NCBI GenBank assembly: GCA_903872155.1
Contig: CAIQJP010000003.1
Span: 1 to 64,000 of the forward strand
DNA: 64,000 bases
Direction: 5' to 3'
Source of the DNA: an uncultured Actinomycetes bacterium
Lineage (GTDB): Bacteria > Actinomycetota > Acidimicrobiia > Acidimicrobiales > Ilumatobacteraceae
Under the pieces are notes generated by a model that was given only the letters and a program-made list of their open reading frames with translations, was not told the DNA's origin and searched no databases. The number at the start of each line of letters is the position of its first letter. Within the stretch, counting starts at the first letter, position 1. Of the stretch, positions 606-6,269 are shown piece after piece. Made by a program: the position numbers and the translations under genes.

Positions 606-1838
606 GTGACTGATCATTTCCCTCCTCCCACTCCACCGATGAGTTCGCCAGCCTCAACCGAGCCAGCGAAACCAAAATCTCGCCGCGGTTTGGTAATTAC
701 GTTCCTCGTGGTTCTTTCGATGGTGATCGGTGGATTTGTCGGTGCACAAATCGCCCAGTCCGGTGATGATTCAGCAACTTCAGATTCAACTGAAGTGGCA
801 ACAACTGTGGCCGACAATGAAATGGACACCAGTAGTTCTGGTGTGACGACAGCTCCGACTGGTGATGCACCGGGAAGTTCGAATGAACCCGTTGCCACTG
901 CACCGTCATCAAATGGTGCTGAACCAGCACTCAACGTTGCTGATGTGTTGAAGAAGATTGAACCAAGCGTCGTCACAATTACTTCGATCACTGAAGGTGG
1001 CACCAGCCCGGGTCGCGCAACTGGTACTGGCATTGTCATCACTTCAGATGGTGACATCTTGACGAACGATCACGTTGTTGACGGCGCCGACAAGGTAAGT
1101 GTTTTGTTTGCTGGTGATACTGAGCCGACGGCAGCAACTGTCTTGGCAGTTGATGTCGGAAATGACTTGGCATTAATCCACGTTGACAAGAGTGGATTGA
1201 CTCCGGCAGTTTTTGCTGATCCCAGTTCTATTGACATTGGTGATGAAGTAGTCGCCGTTGGTTTCGCCCTAGATCTTGATGGTGGACCAACTGTTACCCG
1301 CGGAATCGTTTCGGCGCTCAATCGCACGATCGTGAGTGGTGATGGCGCACTTGATGGACTCATTCAAACTGACACTGCGATTTCATCGGGCAACTCTGGT
1401 GGGCCGTTGGTGAATACGCGTGGTCAAGTGATTGGTATCAATACAGCGGTGTTTCAAAGCTCAAGTGAAGTTGCAGCGAACAATGTGGGTTTCTCTATTT
1501 CGGTTGCTGAAGCGCTTCCCGTGATTGAAGAATTACGGGCTCAAGCCAACGGACAAGCACGAACCGAGGGTTACCTTGGCGTGAGTGTTCTTGATCGTCA
1601 AGACGGTGGACTTGGTGCAGTGATTGCTGAAGTCTCGCCTGGTTCACCAGCCGATCTCGCAGGGATGAAAGTTGATGATGTTGTCATTGAAGCTGATGGT
1701 TCACCAGTTGATGGTCAGCCTGCGCTTGTGGCGGCGATTCGTGACAAGTCACCTGGTGACACCATCAAGATCGATGTACTGCGCGCTGGTGAAAGAATCA
1801 CCTTGACGGCAACACTCATCGAACGCCCCACCGAATAA
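606..1838 (+). CDS. HtrA/DegP-like membrane-anchored serine protease with PDZ domain
   Basis: The 410-residue protein has a short cytoplasmic, proline-rich N-terminus, one membrane segment (about residues 28-50, LVITFLVVLSMVIGGFVGA), a Ser/Thr-rich linker to about 105, and a trypsin-like S1C protease domain. The catalytic triad is visible: His156 in TNDHVV, Asp187 in GNDLAL and Ser264 in GNSGGPL. One PDZ domain follows (YLGVSVLD through GSPADLAGMKVDDVV). HtrA proteases degrade or process damaged envelope proteins. The start is GTG at 606; no clear Shine-Dalgarno precedes it, only the AT-rich GGTAAAAATT. It lies between rpsJ and rplC, near an ECF sigma/anti-sigma pair, which fits envelope stress, but a link is inference. 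Confidence 0.93.
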   Translation: MTDHFPPPTPPMSSPASTEPAKPKSRRGLVITFLVVLSMVIGGFVGAQIAQSGDDSATSDSTEVATTVADNEMDTSSSGVTTAPTGDAPGSSNEPVATAPSSNGAEPALNVADVLKKIEPSVVTITSITEGGTSPGRATGTGIVITSDGDILTNDHVVDGADKVSVLFAGDTEPTAATVLAVDVGNDLALIHVDKSGLTPAVFADPSSIDIGDEVVAVGFALDLDGGPTVTRGIVSALNRTIVSGDGALDGLIQTDTAISSGNSGGPLVNTRGQVIGINTAVFQSSSEVAANNVGFSISVAEALPVIEELRAQANGQARTEGYLGVSVLDRQDGGLGAVIAEVSPGSPADLAGMKVDDVVIEADGSPVDGQPALVAAIRDKSPGDTIKIDVLRAGERITLTATLIERPTE

Positions 1839-1910: not shown

Positions 1911-1922
1911 GAATTGGTGTTG

Positions 1923-1928
1923 TACTGT
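1923..1928 (+). promoter_or_regulatory. Candidate -10 box of a leaderless promoter
   Basis: TACTGT lies exactly six bases before the ATG at 1935, with no Shine-Dalgarno between. This is the same TAnnnT-N6-start spacing as several other genes in the window. No convincing -35 box is visible. Confidence 0.4.
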
Positions 1929-1934
1929 GCGTTC

Positions 1935-3128
1935 ATGCTTGATGTACATGTCGGTGGTGCGCGTCCGTTCGGTCTGAACTATTGGCCAATGCCTGAAGAC
2001 GATCCGGGTGTTGAGATTCCGCGTGAATCAATTCGTTTGGTAAGTCCCGATGGCGCACTTGTGCGTGGAGTGTTGTGGACTCCGCCGAACGGTAAGAAGT
2101 GGAAGACCGCGGTCATCTTGTCGCATCCACGCGGTGACTTCAGCGTGCACTATGCCGCGCCGTTGCTCGCAGCGGCTGGGTATGCAGTTCTAGGTTTTGG
2201 TACGCGCTACATGAACAACGACACCGACTGCTTGCACGAAGCGTGCACGATCGATGTTGAAACGGTGTACAACGAAATGAAACGGCGCGGCGCCGAAGCT
2301 GTGGTGTTGTTGGGTAACTCTGGTGGCGGCTCATTAATGGCGCTTGCTCACGCCGAGCGTGGTATTGGCGATGGTTGGGTGGGTATGGCTGCACACCCGG
2401 GTGAAGGTGTTTTCATGTTGCAGGTCATCGACCCGAGTGTGGCTGATGAAAGCGATCCGTTTTCGACGGTGCCCGAACTTGATATGTACAACCCCGATAA
2501 TGGCTGGCGTCCGTGGCCCGAACCTTGTGTCTACGACAAAGAGTGGCTGAAGCGTTATCGCGCCGCACAAGTTGAACGGGTCGCCCGTATTGATGCAATT
2601 GCCAAGGCCAGCATTGCCGAATCTATTGATGCCGGTTCACGACTGCGGGGAATTGACAATCAAACGCAGACGGTGCAGTGGCGCGAATTACGTCGACGTG
2701 CGGTGTTTACCAAGTACATGGTGATCTATCGCACCCTTGCCGACCCGGCTTATCTTGACTTATCTATTGATCCCGATGAACGGCCCATGGGAAGTCTGTT
2801 TGCCTTTCCCGATCCGTTTGACGCCAACTATGGCCGCGGTGGACTTGGACGTTCGATGACGGCGCGCGGCTGGTTGTCAACGTGGAGCGGGTTATCAAGT
2901 CATGCGAAGTTGGCTGACACGATGCCCAAGGTCAAGGTCCCAACCCTGCTCATCCATCCGACTGCCGACACCGAGATTCGTATCTGGCAGGCCAAAGAGA
3001 TTGTTGACAACAGTGGTGCAGCAGACAAGACGTACATCGAGATGAAAGGTGCACCGCATTATCTTGAGGGTCATCGTCGTGAAGCTCTTGCTCACGTTGC
3101 CGATTGGTTAGCGAAACGATTCCCGTAA
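1935..3128 (+). CDS. Alpha/beta-hydrolase family protein
   Basis: This is a 397-residue protein if it starts at the ATG 1935 (the frame is open to TTG 1914). It has the alpha/beta-hydrolase landmarks: an oxyanion-region AVILSHPRGD, the nucleophile elbow GNSGGGS (Ser about 129), an acid in HPTADTEI, and a late catalytic His in GAPHYLEGH. A long insertion of about 150 residues between the nucleophile and the acid, rich in Trp and Pro (GWRPWPEP), probably forms a lid. There is no signal peptide, so it is probably cytoplasmic. The substrate cannot be deduced; esterase or peptidase activity is possible. It is monocistronic, between the hairpin repeat and a convergent operon. Confidence 0.8.
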   Translation: MLDVHVGGARPFGLNYWPMPEDDPGVEIPRESIRLVSPDGALVRGVLWTPPNGKKWKTAVILSHPRGDFSVHYAAPLLAAAGYAVLGFGTRYMNNDTDCLHEACTIDVETVYNEMKRRGAEAVVLLGNSGGGSLMALAHAERGIGDGWVGMAAHPGEGVFMLQVIDPSVADESDPFSTVPELDMYNPDNGWRPWPEPCVYDKEWLKRYRAAQVERVARIDAIAKASIAESIDAGSRLRGIDNQTQTVQWRELRRRAVFTKYMVIYRTLADPAYLDLSIDPDERPMGSLFAFPDPFDANYGRGGLGRSMTARGWLSTWSGLSSHAKLADTMPKVKVPTLLIHPTADTEIRIWQAKEIVDNSGAADKTYIEMKGAPHYLEGHRREALAHVADWLAKRFP

Positions 3129-3142
3129 ACGAAGTCAGTTCA

Positions 3143-3661
3143 CTAATTGATGTAAATACTGCTCACGCGGTTGTCCCAACCGGTCAGCATCGATGCGGCA
3201 GAACTGTTGGCATTCGTTGAACCGGGATACGTGGGTGAAACATTGTTGGCGTAGTCATAAAAAAGCGCGCTACATGAACCAATGACGTAACTACTTGTCA
3301 GATTGTCAAAACCGTAGGCAGACAAATTGATTGGAACAGTGCGTGTGACGAGGCTCATTACTGATCCGCCGTAAGAAGTATTGCTGTATAGCTTGACTGA
3401 TGTCGCGCATGTTGCGACTGCTGCCTTCAATGTGAATCTTTGATCGATTTGTGAATCCATTTGGCTTTCGGTTCGGAAACATTCGGTTGTACGACCGTCA
3501 GACCAACATGCTTTGGCTTCGCCCCAATCTTTGCTGAGGTCAATGAATGATCCCTCAAAATCAGCGAGTTGGGAGTTGACATCGGCAGCTTGAGTCAAGT
3601 GTGGAGTTGCTAAAAAAATTGCCGTAAATACTGTGATAAATCCAAAAACTTTGCTCTTCAT
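3143..3661 (-). CDS. Secreted beta/gamma-crystallin-like (inhibitor I36-like) small protein
   Basis: The product is about 172 residues from ATG 3661, which has a well-placed GGAGA; the frame extends to 3697. It begins with a signal peptide (MKSKVFGFITVFTAIFLATP then an AXA-type TQAAD). The C-terminal half carries a crystallin-like pattern: VKLYSNTSYGGSV, an aromatic-rich middle, and the typical closing WDNRVSSIYI. Such domains occur in secreted calcium-binding proteins and protease inhibitors; a calcium site is not proven here. Its start overlaps the stop of the anti-sigma-like gene by ATGA, so it is the third gene of a sigma/anti-sigma operon and a plausible output or partner. The function is inferred only. 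Confidence 0.68.
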   Translation of the reverse strand: MKSKVFGFITVFTAIFLATPHLTQAADVNSQLADFEGSFIDLSKDWGEAKACWSDGRTTECFRTESQMDSQIDQRFTLKAAVATCATSVKLYSNTSYGGSVMSLVTRTVPINLSAYGFDNLTSSYVIGSCSALFYDYANNVSPTYPGSTNANSSAASMLTGWDNRVSSIYIN

Positions 3662-4656
3662 TGTGGGATCTCCTCTTGAGGTACTGAAAAGAGCCAAGCC
3701 TCCTTTTTCATTTCAAAGAACAAGACTCTTGTGCATCGATTCGGAAGACTTGGGCTGTCGGATTTCAATATTTTCAACGGGGTGAGAGAGAGATCGTCTG
3801 TGACCAGATTGATCAAACGTTCTGTGATCTCAAAACTCCAACAATTCAAATAAGTGCTTGACCCGACGCGTTGCATGAGTAAATTAAAAGTCCAAGAATT
3901 GACTGAAATGATTCCCAGTTCGTTTTTTGCTGCGTTAATGATGAACCGCGAGCAAGGACCAACAGGATCACGACTGAATAAGAACGAATGAATTTCCTGA
4001 AGTTTCAGCCGCTCGACTTCGGATTGAGCAATCTTGAGAGCTGAATCTTGATCAATACAAACGACATTGATTTTCTCAATGAGCGACTCTTGTAGTTCCG
4101 CGAGTTTTCTCGTTCGCGTTGATTGTTCTTTGGCGGGATACGCGAGACCAAGTCGCGAACACACATCTTCGGTGTTGGCGAATACTTGAGTAAGGCCCGT
4201 CTTGGTGATGCACGCGGTCAATGTCACTTCGCTTGCGGGCACTCCATCAAAGTCGGTGATACCAAGCAAGACGTATGCCTCGCGACAGGCTGCAACCGGA
4301 TCTGCGCTTGGTGGGTACACAAGATTGCCAAAACCCGAATCTTCGGGTGTTGAGCAAATCATTCCCGAAAGTGGTTGAGCGGGTTCGGTACGCCAGAGAT
4401 CGGCTGCGGCGAATCCACCGCCAACGACTGCACCGCTCACGAGCAATGCAGCGATGAATGTATGTAGTCGCGACCAACGACGACGACGTGTCGGCGAGAC
4501 GAGACGGGTGATCGTGCGATCAATCAAGGTCTGATCGGGCGCATCTGCGAATTCGGTCCACAGTTGAGGTGTGGTGACAATGACTTGGCGAGCCAACTCA
4601 TCAAAAGCGGTGAAATCTGGGTAGTTCATGCCTGGGTAGTCCACGTTGTCGTTCAT
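3658..4656 (-). CDS. Membrane protein in anti-sigma-factor position
   Basis: The 332-residue protein has a cytoplasmic N-terminus of about 60 residues, a basic RRRRW stop signal, one membrane helix (about 64-86, HTFIAALLVSGAVVGGGF) and a large outer domain with about eight cysteines. The gene follows the ECF sigma gene with an ATGA overlap, the standard arrangement for a transmembrane anti-sigma factor. No zinc-type HxxxCxxC anti-sigma motif is visible, and the outer domain resembles nothing I recognise. The even cysteine number suggests disulfides outside the membrane. The assignment rests on topology and position. Confidence 0.65.
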   Translation of the reverse strand: MNDNVDYPGMNYPDFTAFDELARQVIVTTPQLWTEFADAPDQTLIDRTITRLVSPTRRRRWSRLHTFIAALLVSGAVVGGGFAAADLWRTEPAQPLSGMICSTPEDSGFGNLVYPPSADPVAACREAYVLLGITDFDGVPASEVTLTACITKTGLTQVFANTEDVCSRLGLAYPAKEQSTRTRKLAELQESLIEKINVVCIDQDSALKIAQSEVERLKLQEIHSFLFSRDPVGPCSRFIINAAKNELGIISVNSWTFNLLMQRVGSSTYLNCWSFEITERLINLVTDDLSLTPLKILKSDSPSLPNRCTRVLFFEMKKEAWLFSVPQEEIPQ

Positions 4657-5270
4657 GCGTCACCTCCCTCGGGGTCACGAAGGGTGTCTGTGGGTGCGTC
4701 GCCCTGGGGCAGGCGACGAGCGACCTCGGCTTTGAGGGCCTCACGGGCTACAGCTAGCCGAGAACGGACCGTGCTGGCATTGAGGTCAAGTTTTTGACCG
4801 ATCACCGAACTGTTCTCGCCGAGCGCGTCCCAGGCCAACAGTTGGCGCTGGCCTGGGGTCAGCGCTTGGAGGGCCTCGTTGAACACCACTCGAAGTTCGG
4901 CATCGTTGAGTGAATTGATGCTGGTCAGGCCGGCATCTTCGACAAAAGGCCTGGTCAAGATGGGGTCGGCAGAAAACTTGGCGATGGTGCGTCGGCGGGT
5001 GATCGACCGTCGCGAATGGTTGGCGACCACGTATTTCGCGGTCTGGACCAGCCAGCCCTGCTGCCCCTCGGGGGAAGCCGCCATGAGCTTCTTGTGATGG
5101 CGAAAGGCCAGGTCAAAGACTTCAGCCCAAAGATCTTCGGCATCTTGCCGGTTGATTTCACGGGAAGAAATCACGGCAAAGACGATTTTTCCGTGGGTCT
5201 CAATGAGACCGCGGATGAAATCCTCGAGCTTTTTCTTCGACGCGATGGTCGTCACGGTAGTTCTTGGCAC
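4653..5270 (-). CDS. ECF-type RNA polymerase sigma factor
   Basis: The 205-residue protein has a sigma region 2 (about 15-85, with INRQDAEDLWAEVFDLAF and the DNA-melting-type WLVQTAKYVVANHSRR) and a region 4 helix-turn-helix (about 125-185, ALTPGQRQLLAWDALGE then LDLNASTVRSRLAVAREAL). No region 3 or extra C-terminal domain is present. ECF sigmas direct RNA polymerase to stress or envelope genes and are held by a co-encoded membrane anti-sigma, here the next gene (ATGA overlap). The start at GTG 5270 lacks a good ribosome site; another GTG lies five codons in. It is divergent from the rplC operon, sharing a 360-nt intergenic region. Confidence 0.88.
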   Translation of the reverse strand: MPRTTVTTIASKKKLEDFIRGLIETHGKIVFAVISSREINRQDAEDLWAEVFDLAFRHHKKLMAASPEGQQGWLVQTAKYVVANHSRRSITRRRTIAKFSADPILTRPFVEDAGLTSINSLNDAELRVVFNEALQALTPGQRQLLAWDALGENSSVIGQKLDLNASTVRSRLAVAREALKAEVARRLPQGDAPTDTLRDPEGGDA

Positions 5271-5630
5271 AACAGAGGTGAAGTGTCACGAGAACAATCA
5301 GTGTCCAACCTTGTCGACGAGGTGCTCTAACAGTGAAATTGTCTTACTATATGAGACAAAAGATCCATAGAAATTGCTGGTCGACGCGTGTGGGTTCGCG
5401 TCCAATGTGGCGGTAGCGTTCCCACCTCGTGCGAAACGGACTTCTGTCCGTCCGCTGCAATCGATGTCTATGAAAGCCCGGCTCGCTGGGGACTACATGG
5501 CAACAACCGAAAAAAATGCTCCGTTGATCATCCGATCCACGGAGCGTTTGCATGAACGGCGGTTTACCAAAGTTCATGCACAGTCAACTCGAAAGCGCCA
5601 GAAAAACTGGCTGGATGAAGAGGCTGCCTT
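5271..5630. promoter_or_regulatory. Divergent intergenic region and structured leader of the rplC operon
   Basis: No gene is supported in these 360 bases. An inverted repeat TTGTCT-N9-AGACAA (5339-5344, 5354-5359) flanks a -10-like TACTAT at 5345-5350, which also reads as TATAGT on the other strand. It may serve the rplC operon, the sigma gene or both. Downstream are two consecutive hairpins with 14-nt loops: GCTCCGT/ACGGAGC (5518-5524, 5539-5545) and TGCATGAAC/GTTCATGCA (5549-5557, 5572-5580). A smaller CGGAC-TTCT-GTCCG hairpin lies upstream. These are candidates for r-protein autoregulation. Confidence 0.5.
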
Positions 5631-6269
5631 ATGGCAAAGAAAGCGATCGTCGGCGAAAAGGTCGGCATGACACAAGTGTGGGCAGACGATAATTCAATCG
5701 TTCCCGTCACTGTGCTTCGTGTTGAACCAGCTCGCATTGTTCAAGTCAAGACTTCCGAGCGCGACGGTTACGCCGCGCTTCAAGTCACGTATGGGCACAA
5801 GGACGCCAAGAAATTGTCCAAGCCCAAGGCTGGTCACTTCGCGAAAGCGGATGTCGAATCTGGTCGTCGTCTCGTCGAGCTTCGTCTCGAGAGCGTTGAC
5901 GGATTCGAAGTTGGCGGAGAGATCACTGTTGATCAATTCGTCAAGGGCCAAAAAGTCGACGTGACTGCAGTGAGCCGCGGTAAGGGCTTCGCTGGTGGAA
6001 TGAAGCGTCACAACTTCAGTGGTCAAGGCGCAAGTCACGGTAACCACAAGCACCACCGTGCTCCTGGTTCCATTGGTTCGGCTTCATACCCGGGCCGCGT
6101 TTTGAAGGGTCTCAAGATGGCCGGACACATGGGTCATGCCCAAGTCACCACCTTGAACCTCGAAGTTGTTGAGGCTGATGCTGAACGTGGTTTGTTGTTG
6201 GTCCGTGGTTCAGTACCCGGCCCCAATGGTGGCGTTGTCATCGTGCGCAACGCGGTGAAGGGAAAGTGA
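5631..6269 (+). CDS. rplC: 50S ribosomal protein L3
   Basis: The 212-residue product starts [17 protein letters not shown] and carries the characteristic [15 protein letters not shown] and [15 protein letters not shown] segments. L3 nucleates 50S assembly; its extended loop reaches the peptidyl-transferase centre. The gene opens the S10-spc-alpha cluster here, about 280 nt after the likely promoter. rplD follows after 4 bases. Confidence 0.97.

Follow-up and report, generated by a model that had tools for sequence, protein, structure and literature searches.

Switches run by extracytoplasmic function (ECF) sigma factors are common, and the outside cue that trips them is rarely known. Here we describe a three-gene operon on the minus strand of a 64,000-base stretch of DNA (positions 1-64000 of contig C3 of genome G000, an assembly of 2.81 Mb in 165 contigs; this whole stretch is called the window below). 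Its genes code for an ECF-type sigma factor (SIG), a one-helix membrane protein presumed to be an anti-sigma factor (ANTI) and a secreted betagamma-crystallin-like protein (SEC). A preliminary description of the window had proposed it as a candidate undescribed signaling module. Overall, that interpretation was partly supported, and the proposal itself was upheld: the trio recurs in other genomes, often with an ECF-like motif at its head, and no description of it was found in the open-licence PubMed Central literature, judged by titles and abstract starts. Because a secreted candidate for the partner is encoded within the operon, a single protein-protein test could name the cue. In addition, the recurring trio places a family of secreted crystallin-like proteins in a functional context.

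The closest described systems are as follows. CnrYXH of Cupriavidus metallidurans consists of the ECF sigma factor CnrH, the membrane anti-sigma factor CnrY and the periplasmic metal sensor CnrX (PMC7689651). Like the trio, it joins an ECF sigma factor and a membrane anti-sigma factor to a metal-binding partner outside, calcium binding by SEC being a prediction and the anti-sigma role of ANTI presumed. However, CnrX, which senses Co/Ni, is anchored in the membrane, and the system targets an efflux pump, whereas SEC is crystallin-like and secreted in free form and ANTI has a large disulfide-type ectodomain. No relation was found between CnrX and SEC, or between CnrY and ANTI. In Caulobacter vibrioides, the gene of a secreted calcium-type protein, CaBP, precedes that of the ECF sigma factor SigV in a positive loop, which recalls those of our loci in which SEC comes first; CaBP, however, is an EF-hand protein of a Gram-negative periplasm (PMC13171946). 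The trio operon encodes its own membrane protein, whereas no membrane link is identified for CaBP in the part of the account consulted.

SigK-RskA of the Mycobacterium tuberculosis complex, with MPT70 and MPT83, shares with the trio an actinobacterial ECF sigma factor; its co-transcribed one-helix membrane anti-sigma factor and its regulon, which holds secreted or surface proteins, resemble the presumed role of ANTI and the candidate regulon of the trio (PMC7509140); RskA, like ANTI, has no zinc motif (PMC7406223). However, no RskA Pfam model was listed for the 16 aligned ANTI and SEC members. MPT70 and MPT83 are not known to be crystallin-like. In SigV-RsiV of Bacillus subtilis the anti-sigma ectodomain acts as the receptor of an extracellular protein, but the ligand is foreign lysozyme and is not encoded by the operon (PMC5014341). 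An operon-encoded crystallin-like partner does not appear for any of these systems in the portions of the accounts consulted.

With slightly better than even confidence, we read the trio as an autoregulated ECF sigma/anti-sigma switch that drives small secreted proteins, with feedback by SEC included. The short inner part of ANTI would hold SIG at the membrane, and some state of its ectodomain, with six to eight Cys residues, would free it. Freed SIG would transcribe its own operon, SEC included, from a promoter ahead of the first gene, and in some relatives also other operons for secreted proteins and lipoproteins. SEC would be exported as a betagamma-crystallin-like protein and predicted calcium binder; it would be what the switch chiefly produces, and would also touch the ectodomain as feedback. 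Binding and release of SIG by ANTI, reading of the motif by SIG and the sign of the feedback are what we infer from the comparisons below.

The SIG-ANTI-SEC operon and its recurrence

Direct reading of the sequence confirmed the three-gene operon. Its features are as follows:

4653..5270, minus strand: SIG, ECF-type sigma factor with sigma-70 regions 2 and 4, 205 amino acids, GTG start
3658..4656, minus strand: ANTI, membrane protein with a single helix and presumed anti-sigma factor
3658..4071, minus strand: distal ectodomain of ANTI (residues 196-332), the most divergent segment between near relatives
3143..3661, minus strand: SEC, secreted betagamma-crystallin-like protein, 172 amino acids
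5300..5327, minus strand: promoter-like site upstream of SIG, a degenerate motif matched by eye
3129..5338, strand not applicable: stretch missing from genome G114, by comparison with its locus L168
5339..5359: imperfect inverted repeat bordering the trio stretch on the right, which G114 has too

As had been reported from the first reading, the genes are joined by ATGA overlaps (SIG/ANTI at 4656-4653 and ANTI/SEC at 3661-3658). The possibility that these are chance reading frames was ruled out, as the SIG, ANTI and SEC families recur adjacent to each other in other genomes.

Such co-occurrence had been set as a test of the module, which it passed. We used a profile set of the window plus 41 loci, or 42 sequences of 3-11 kb each. 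SIG and ANTI were adjacent in 40 of the 42, with SEC alongside in 35 of those 40 and always on ANTI's strand (35 of 35). Because most loci were fetched by an ANTI or SEC match, the telling figures are those for SIG given ANTI and for SEC given ANTI. The SIG-ANTI junction was a 4-base overlap in 26 of 40 cases; in this strand and overlap count, L141 was entered twice and L144 fell outside the distance filter. The 35 complete loci were divided between two gene orders, SIG-ANTI-SEC (18 loci) and SEC-SIG-ANTI (17 loci).

Occurrence was then assessed at three taxonomic levels. Among 200 genomes of the family, including that of the window, ANTI was present in 20, SEC in 18 and both in 16; ANTI occurred alone in four (G014, G038, G048 and G079) and SEC alone in two (G076, and G183 with a weak match containing an internal stop). 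Among 395 genomes of the class, ANTI matches were found in 64 at E≤0.001 and in 22 at 1e-10, the latter limit being set post hoc because weaker matches were short and centered on the membrane helix. SEC was present in 18 of these 395 genomes, all of them within the 22 with ANTI. Among 296 genomes of the phylum (E≤1e-6), ANTI was detected in eight and SEC in six, including members beyond the class in G738 and G811 (ANTI) and G674 (SEC). A pattern scan of named genomes yielded 15 loci, all in metagenome-assembled genomes assigned to Acidimicrobiia, Acidimicrobiales, Ilumatobacter, Ilumatobacteraceae or unspecified actinobacteria. Larger regions of G038, G183 and G321 were not fetched. At L097 of G321, ANTI was present and neither SIG nor SEC was found within 3.3 kb, and at L061 of G048 the profiles detected none of the three genes.

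Several loci had unusual arrangements. At L141 (2775-6099), one SEC gene is flanked by two SIG-ANTI pairs, one per strand. Possible decay was seen at L137 (2315-2999), where ANTI is split over two reading frames, and at L143 (3029-3972), where the SIG match is only a fragment and SEC is absent. G674, a genome from beyond the class, has two SEC-like genes on the strand of a sigma gene, at distances of 0.9 and 2.2 kb downstream (L190 3296-5684 and L191 2718-6229), with a weak ANTI-like frame between them in L191. Judging from the G674 loci, the module may reach further than counted. None of five proteins matched the PADLOC anti-phage defence models at E≤0.01, and a viral link was unsupported, as a single-protein scan of viral contigs gave no match.

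SIG of the window matched Pfam sigma-70 region 2 (E 0.0028) and region 4 (E 3.6e-5), both under the Pfam cut-offs, as well as TIGR02937 (sigma70-ECF; E 4.5e-9) with 36.1 bits against a cut-off of 42.9. Among aligned relatives, Sigma70_r4_2 was detected in 18 of 18 and Sigma70_r2 in 16 of 18 (E≤0.01). The two best solved relatives of the SIG profile were the ECF sigma factors SigL and CnrH (E about 9e-25; 9.6e-25 for CnrH). Having only sigma-70 regions 2 and 4 within about 200 amino acids, SIG is an ECF sigma factor by its sequence features.

ANTI consists of an inner part (about residues 1-62), a single hydrophobic helix and an outer part (about residues 89-332). It had been noted as a one-helix protein with no zinc motif and about eight outer Cys residues, and this was confirmed, the eight lying at positions 101, 124, 149, 166, 200, 235, 272 and 308. 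The HxxxCxxC motif, which defines zinc-binding class I anti-sigma factors (PMC7406223), was found in the inner part of none of 40 ANTI sequences, that of the window included, and by this motif ANTI falls outside that class. Six outer Cys residues are invariant across both ANTI alignments (19 and 16 rows), and a script count gave exactly six in 38 of 40 sequences and eight in the window and L042. A Cys residue ahead of the helix was seen in 7 of 40, part of which may be an artefact of frames read upstream of the start, and a second hydrophobic stretch in 4 of 40.

The AlphaFold model of ANTI had a mean predicted local distance difference test (pLDDT) score of 73.5, with the first 100 residues weak. 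A helix-helix-three-strand order appeared twice in it (residues 180-252 and 255-326), and this repeat makes duplication of the distal unit the probable source of the extra Cys 272 and Cys 308. In L188, a distant relative, the ANTI profile likewise matches twice over the distal region. A Foldseek search of the PDB with the model returned nothing at E≤0.001; in VIA-align, the best of 988 chains reached Z 4.4 over 54 residues (root-mean-square deviation 2.6), with 224 chains at Z≥2 and none at Z≥5. A sequence search of the PDB gave just four chance-like matches (E at least 0.42). Since no known anti-sigma family was matched, and since the model is poor over an inner part that is itself short, it could be argued that ANTI is not an anti-sigma factor and that SIG merely adjoins an unrelated membrane protein. 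The adjacency of the two genes in 40 of 42 sequences and their 4-base overlap at most junctions argue against this, and we regard it as very unlikely.

SEC of the window has a hydrophobic N-terminal signal, then a conserved N-terminal region with two Cys residues and then a region with the crystallin signature. The betagamma-crystallin signature is YxxxxY/FxG with two N/D-N/D-x-x-S/T-S motifs (PMC3551895), and SEC carries one YxxxxYxG plus two such motifs, DNLTSS and DNRVSS; by these motifs, SEC is betagamma-crystallin-like. Among 36 SEC sequences, three of them partial at a contig end, calcium-type motif 1 was present in 32 and motif 2 in 27, and a clear hydrophobic N-terminus was not seen in six (partial genes counted). 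SEC is predicted to bind calcium. Its likeness to microbial betagamma-crystallins and to the peptidase inhibitor family I36 lies in these motifs and in weak profile links: the SEC profile matched the solved crystallins 3hzb (E 0.1) and 2bv2 (E 0.87) weakly. SEC differs from both in the added N-terminal region, in four invariant Cys residues overall (52, 61, 85 and 130) and in its linkage to a sigma/anti-sigma pair. The structure model of SEC was poor (mean pLDDT 59), and Foldseek with this model found nothing at E≤0.001.

The preliminary description had called SEC a secreted, crystallin-like protein resembling I36. The signal and the crystallin motifs bear out the first part; the resemblance to I36 (PF03995) fell below the gathering cut-off, with 13.1 bits against 21.1 (E 0.096). 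It has nevertheless to be considered whether SEC is an I36-like secreted peptidase inhibitor that shields the ectodomain from the protease making the first cut; the switch would then fire once there is more protease than inhibitor. In favor of such a role, 4 of 16 SEC members match I36 weakly (E≤0.1, best 5.9e-4), and a further point is L135, where an I36 protein over the Pfam cut-off adjoins the trio with the motif about 170 bases ahead of its start. However, SEC of the window is itself under the cut-off, the HtrA-type protease near the operon is not linked to the trio (see below), and no conserved protease neighbor was identified, the neighbors not having been systematically searched for proteases. 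We find this role highly improbable.

A different possibility is that SEC carries the signal as in CnrYXH: calcium-loaded or calcium-free SEC would bind the ectodomain and trigger release of SIG, acting as an activator. The place of CnrH among the two best solved relatives of the SIG profile and the two calcium-type motifs of SEC are consistent with this, and in Caulobacter a periplasmic calcium-binding protein encoded ahead of an ECF sigma gene is reported to boost its expression (PMC13171946). On the other hand, the second calcium-type motif is intact in only 27 of 36 SEC sequences, calcium binding is predicted from sequence, and SEC has no membrane anchor, unlike CnrX (PMC7689651). We consider an activating sensor role unlikely.

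Promoter motifs and the candidate regulon

Three motif patterns were recognized upstream of the operon. Where SEC comes first, GCGAYR-N11-13-CGGACA was present in 8 of 15 upstream regions. Ahead of SIG, GGAACA-N12-16-RACAC was found in 4 of 6 regions of the window's subgroup and TGTMAY-N13-15-CGGACA in 7 of 16 regions of other loci. Shuffled controls averaged 0.01 for each pattern, which calibrates chance and not the choice of pattern, because the patterns were drafted after viewing the sequences. Of 39 upstream regions, two of which were just 2-3 bases long, one held the textbook GGAAC-N14-18-CGT. As a motif stands at the operon head in either gene order, it points to the trio being one self-transcribed unit.

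A search for the regulon by an ECF promoter motif had also been proposed. A candidate regulon emerged in G022, where the pattern GGAACAN{14,15}RACACT gave 5 matches against 0 for the reversed control, and not in the window genome (1 match against 2 in the control). One G022 match is the trio promoter, and another lies about 430 bases upstream of it. Each of the other three stands ahead of a two-gene operon, whose first gene encodes a secreted protein or peptide and whose second, about 290 codons long, is lipoprotein-like (signal peptides and lipoboxes were assessed by eye):

L205 1066-1551 and 1548-2420: pair 1, secreted protein or peptide and lipoprotein-like protein, behind the motif
L205 6341-6490 and 6497-7381: pair 2, secreted protein or peptide and lipoprotein-like protein, behind the motif
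L206 1748-2152 and 2198-3085: pair 3, secreted protein or peptide and lipoprotein-like protein, behind the motif

The lipoproteins of pairs 1 and 2 are related (24% identity, E 6e-12), and that of pair 3 has a relative at L205 4710-5480. Pfam searches with the G022 regulon proteins gave a single chance-like match, and neither Pfam nor NCBIfam describes the families. An earlier regulon pattern, which gave 1 match versus 0 in G022 and 2 versus 1 in the window genome, was replaced, its spacing being wrong for the known G022 promoter.

Wider scans gave 43 matches versus 7 controls for the SEC-first pattern in ten SEC-first genomes, and 13 versus 4 for the SIG-first pattern in seven SIG-first genomes. 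These 56 matches comprised 15 trio promoters, 34 that were examined and 7 that were not looked at. Six of the 34 examined precede a gene with a signal-like N-terminus, that of the I36 protein of L135 among them, and 28 of the 34, including two of the six singled out, fall within an open frame of at least 200 codons. A small secreted protein was observed behind a motif of the SEC-first type at L211 681-971; its similarity to lactococcin 972 bacteriocins is very weak and below the cut-off (E 0.073).

These data also bear on the possibility that SEC is a mere output. In that case an unrelated envelope signal, such as cell-wall stress, an enzyme or a competitor's product, would bind or cleave the ectodomain, and SEC and the other products would be protective and never touch ANTI. 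The motif in G022 does stand ahead of other secreted proteins and lipoproteins, as in a plain secreted-protein regulon; RsiV is an anti-sigma receptor for a foreign protein, lysozyme (PMC5014341); and 5 of 40 loci have SIG and ANTI without SEC. However, SEC is kept with SIG and ANTI across two gene orders, and it diverges together with the distal ectodomain in two near pairs of loci (see below). We consider an output-only SEC rather unlikely.

Mosaic divergence of ANTI and SEC

Comparison of near relatives revealed a mosaic pattern. Between the window and G056, SIG is 96% identical and ANTI residues 1-195 are 92-100% identical by segment, whereas the distal ectodomain is 35% and 19% and SEC 65% identical. 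Synonymous divergence (dS) is 0.16 in SIG, climbs to 1.54 in SEC and reaches saturation in the distal ectodomain. The same was seen in another genus between G053 and G018 (SIG 97%, distal ectodomain 19%, SEC 67%). Between the window and G836, it is mainly ANTI residues 196-252 that differ (65%), with SEC at 94%. Overall, the distal ectodomain is divergent in three of four near pairs, and SEC as well in two. Because dS rises with nonsynonymous divergence (dN) in most divergent segments, import of divergent sequence is a simpler reading than positive selection on the ectodomain; in the distal segment of G053/G018 alone, dN is about equal to dS (0.75 and 0.72).

Correlation of evolutionary distances (mirror-tree) was assessed over 32 loci, after five SEC-less loci, L055 and L133 (both with partial SEC) and L137 (split ANTI) were dropped. 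SEC distances correlated with those of the distal ectodomain at 0.52 (Spearman), the inner part of ANTI at 0.30 and SIG at 0.29. In SEC-first loci, where SIG adjoins SEC, the values were 0.75 for the proximal ectodomain, 0.66 for the distal ectodomain, 0.65 for the inner part and 0.63 for SIG; in SIG-first loci, they were 0.55 for the distal unit and 0.51 for the inner part. The correlations and the mosaic are suggestive of contact between SEC and the ectodomain and fit it without showing it.

Since one operon would yield ANTI and SEC jointly, and in two cases replacement has affected both the distal ectodomain and SEC, SEC as both product and feedback appears the likeliest of its possible roles. 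Several observations weigh against the feedback switch as a whole. The inner part of ANTI, which would hold SIG, is matched by no curated anti-sigma model, fits no known family and is poorly modeled by AlphaFold, and SEC is absent at five of the 40 SIG-ANTI loci. The three promoter patterns, devised post hoc, together cover 19 of 37 upstream regions, or about half. The site in the window, GAGCAC (5327-5322) with TTGGACACT (5308-5300), lies outside the counted pattern and is a degenerate version of the motif GGAACA / GACACT seen in L043, L044, L046 and L064. The G022 regulon pattern did not exceed its control in the window genome, where the sole match outside the window falls inside a reading frame (L207), or in G056 (1 versus 1). 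In G124 versus G113, one of the four near pairs, the distal unit is not specially divergent (SIG 92%, ectodomain 67% and 72%, SEC 81%), and the divergent tract of G053/G018 extends about 0.9 kb beyond SEC. Finally, in SEC-first and SIG-first loci taken separately, the inner part of ANTI tracks SEC nearly as well as the ectodomain does, and for this reason the mirror-tree correlations are no proof of contact.

A bolder extension would be that the ectodomain and SEC form a co-diversifying receptor-ligand pair, an allelic cassette swapped between strains while the sigma engine stays constant. We hold this to be distinctly doubtful. If true, the cassette would provide a protein-based signal, variable and serving self-recognition or autocrine signaling, to be read by an ECF sigma factor, which in turn would control sets of small secreted proteins and lipoproteins. 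The mosaic ectodomain hints at diversifying recognition in uncultured actinobacteria.

The genomic site of the trio

Outside the module, the operon is surrounded by the following genes:

155-469: rpsJ
606-1838, plus strand: HtrA-type protease
1914-3128, plus strand: alpha/beta-hydrolase
5631-6269: rplC, beyond SIG, identified by sequence

The genes rpsJ and rplC typically adjoin in the S10 ribosomal-protein operon. In the window, they are split apart by the HtrA and hydrolase genes and the trio.

The trio is variably present at this site. It is also found there in G056 and G836. In G114 (L168), the trio and its promoter are absent, and about 10 bases separate the hydrolase stop from the inverted repeat; the flanks are 88% (left) and 97% (right) identical to those of the window. 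G192 is also without the trio, with flanks 88% and 96% identical.

The preliminary description had tentatively placed the neighboring HtrA protease in the circuit. The protease does adjoin the operon, but no link to the trio emerged, and HtrA was rejected as a circuit part. The hydrolase gene is present in 20 of 24 genomes of the genus, and at 11 of 21 hydrolase-gene loci HtrA, hydrolase and rplC occur together without the trio. In the set of 42 sequences, HtrA, hydrolase or rplC appear in just two, the window and L042, which is its orthologue at the same site; this count would miss a distant HtrA because those sequences span just 3-11 kb. At the trio's site, G188 and G176 carry about 0.65 kb of other sequence (L170 ~2714-3385 and L174 ~2714-3371), flanked by the hydrolase gene and the region upstream of rplC.

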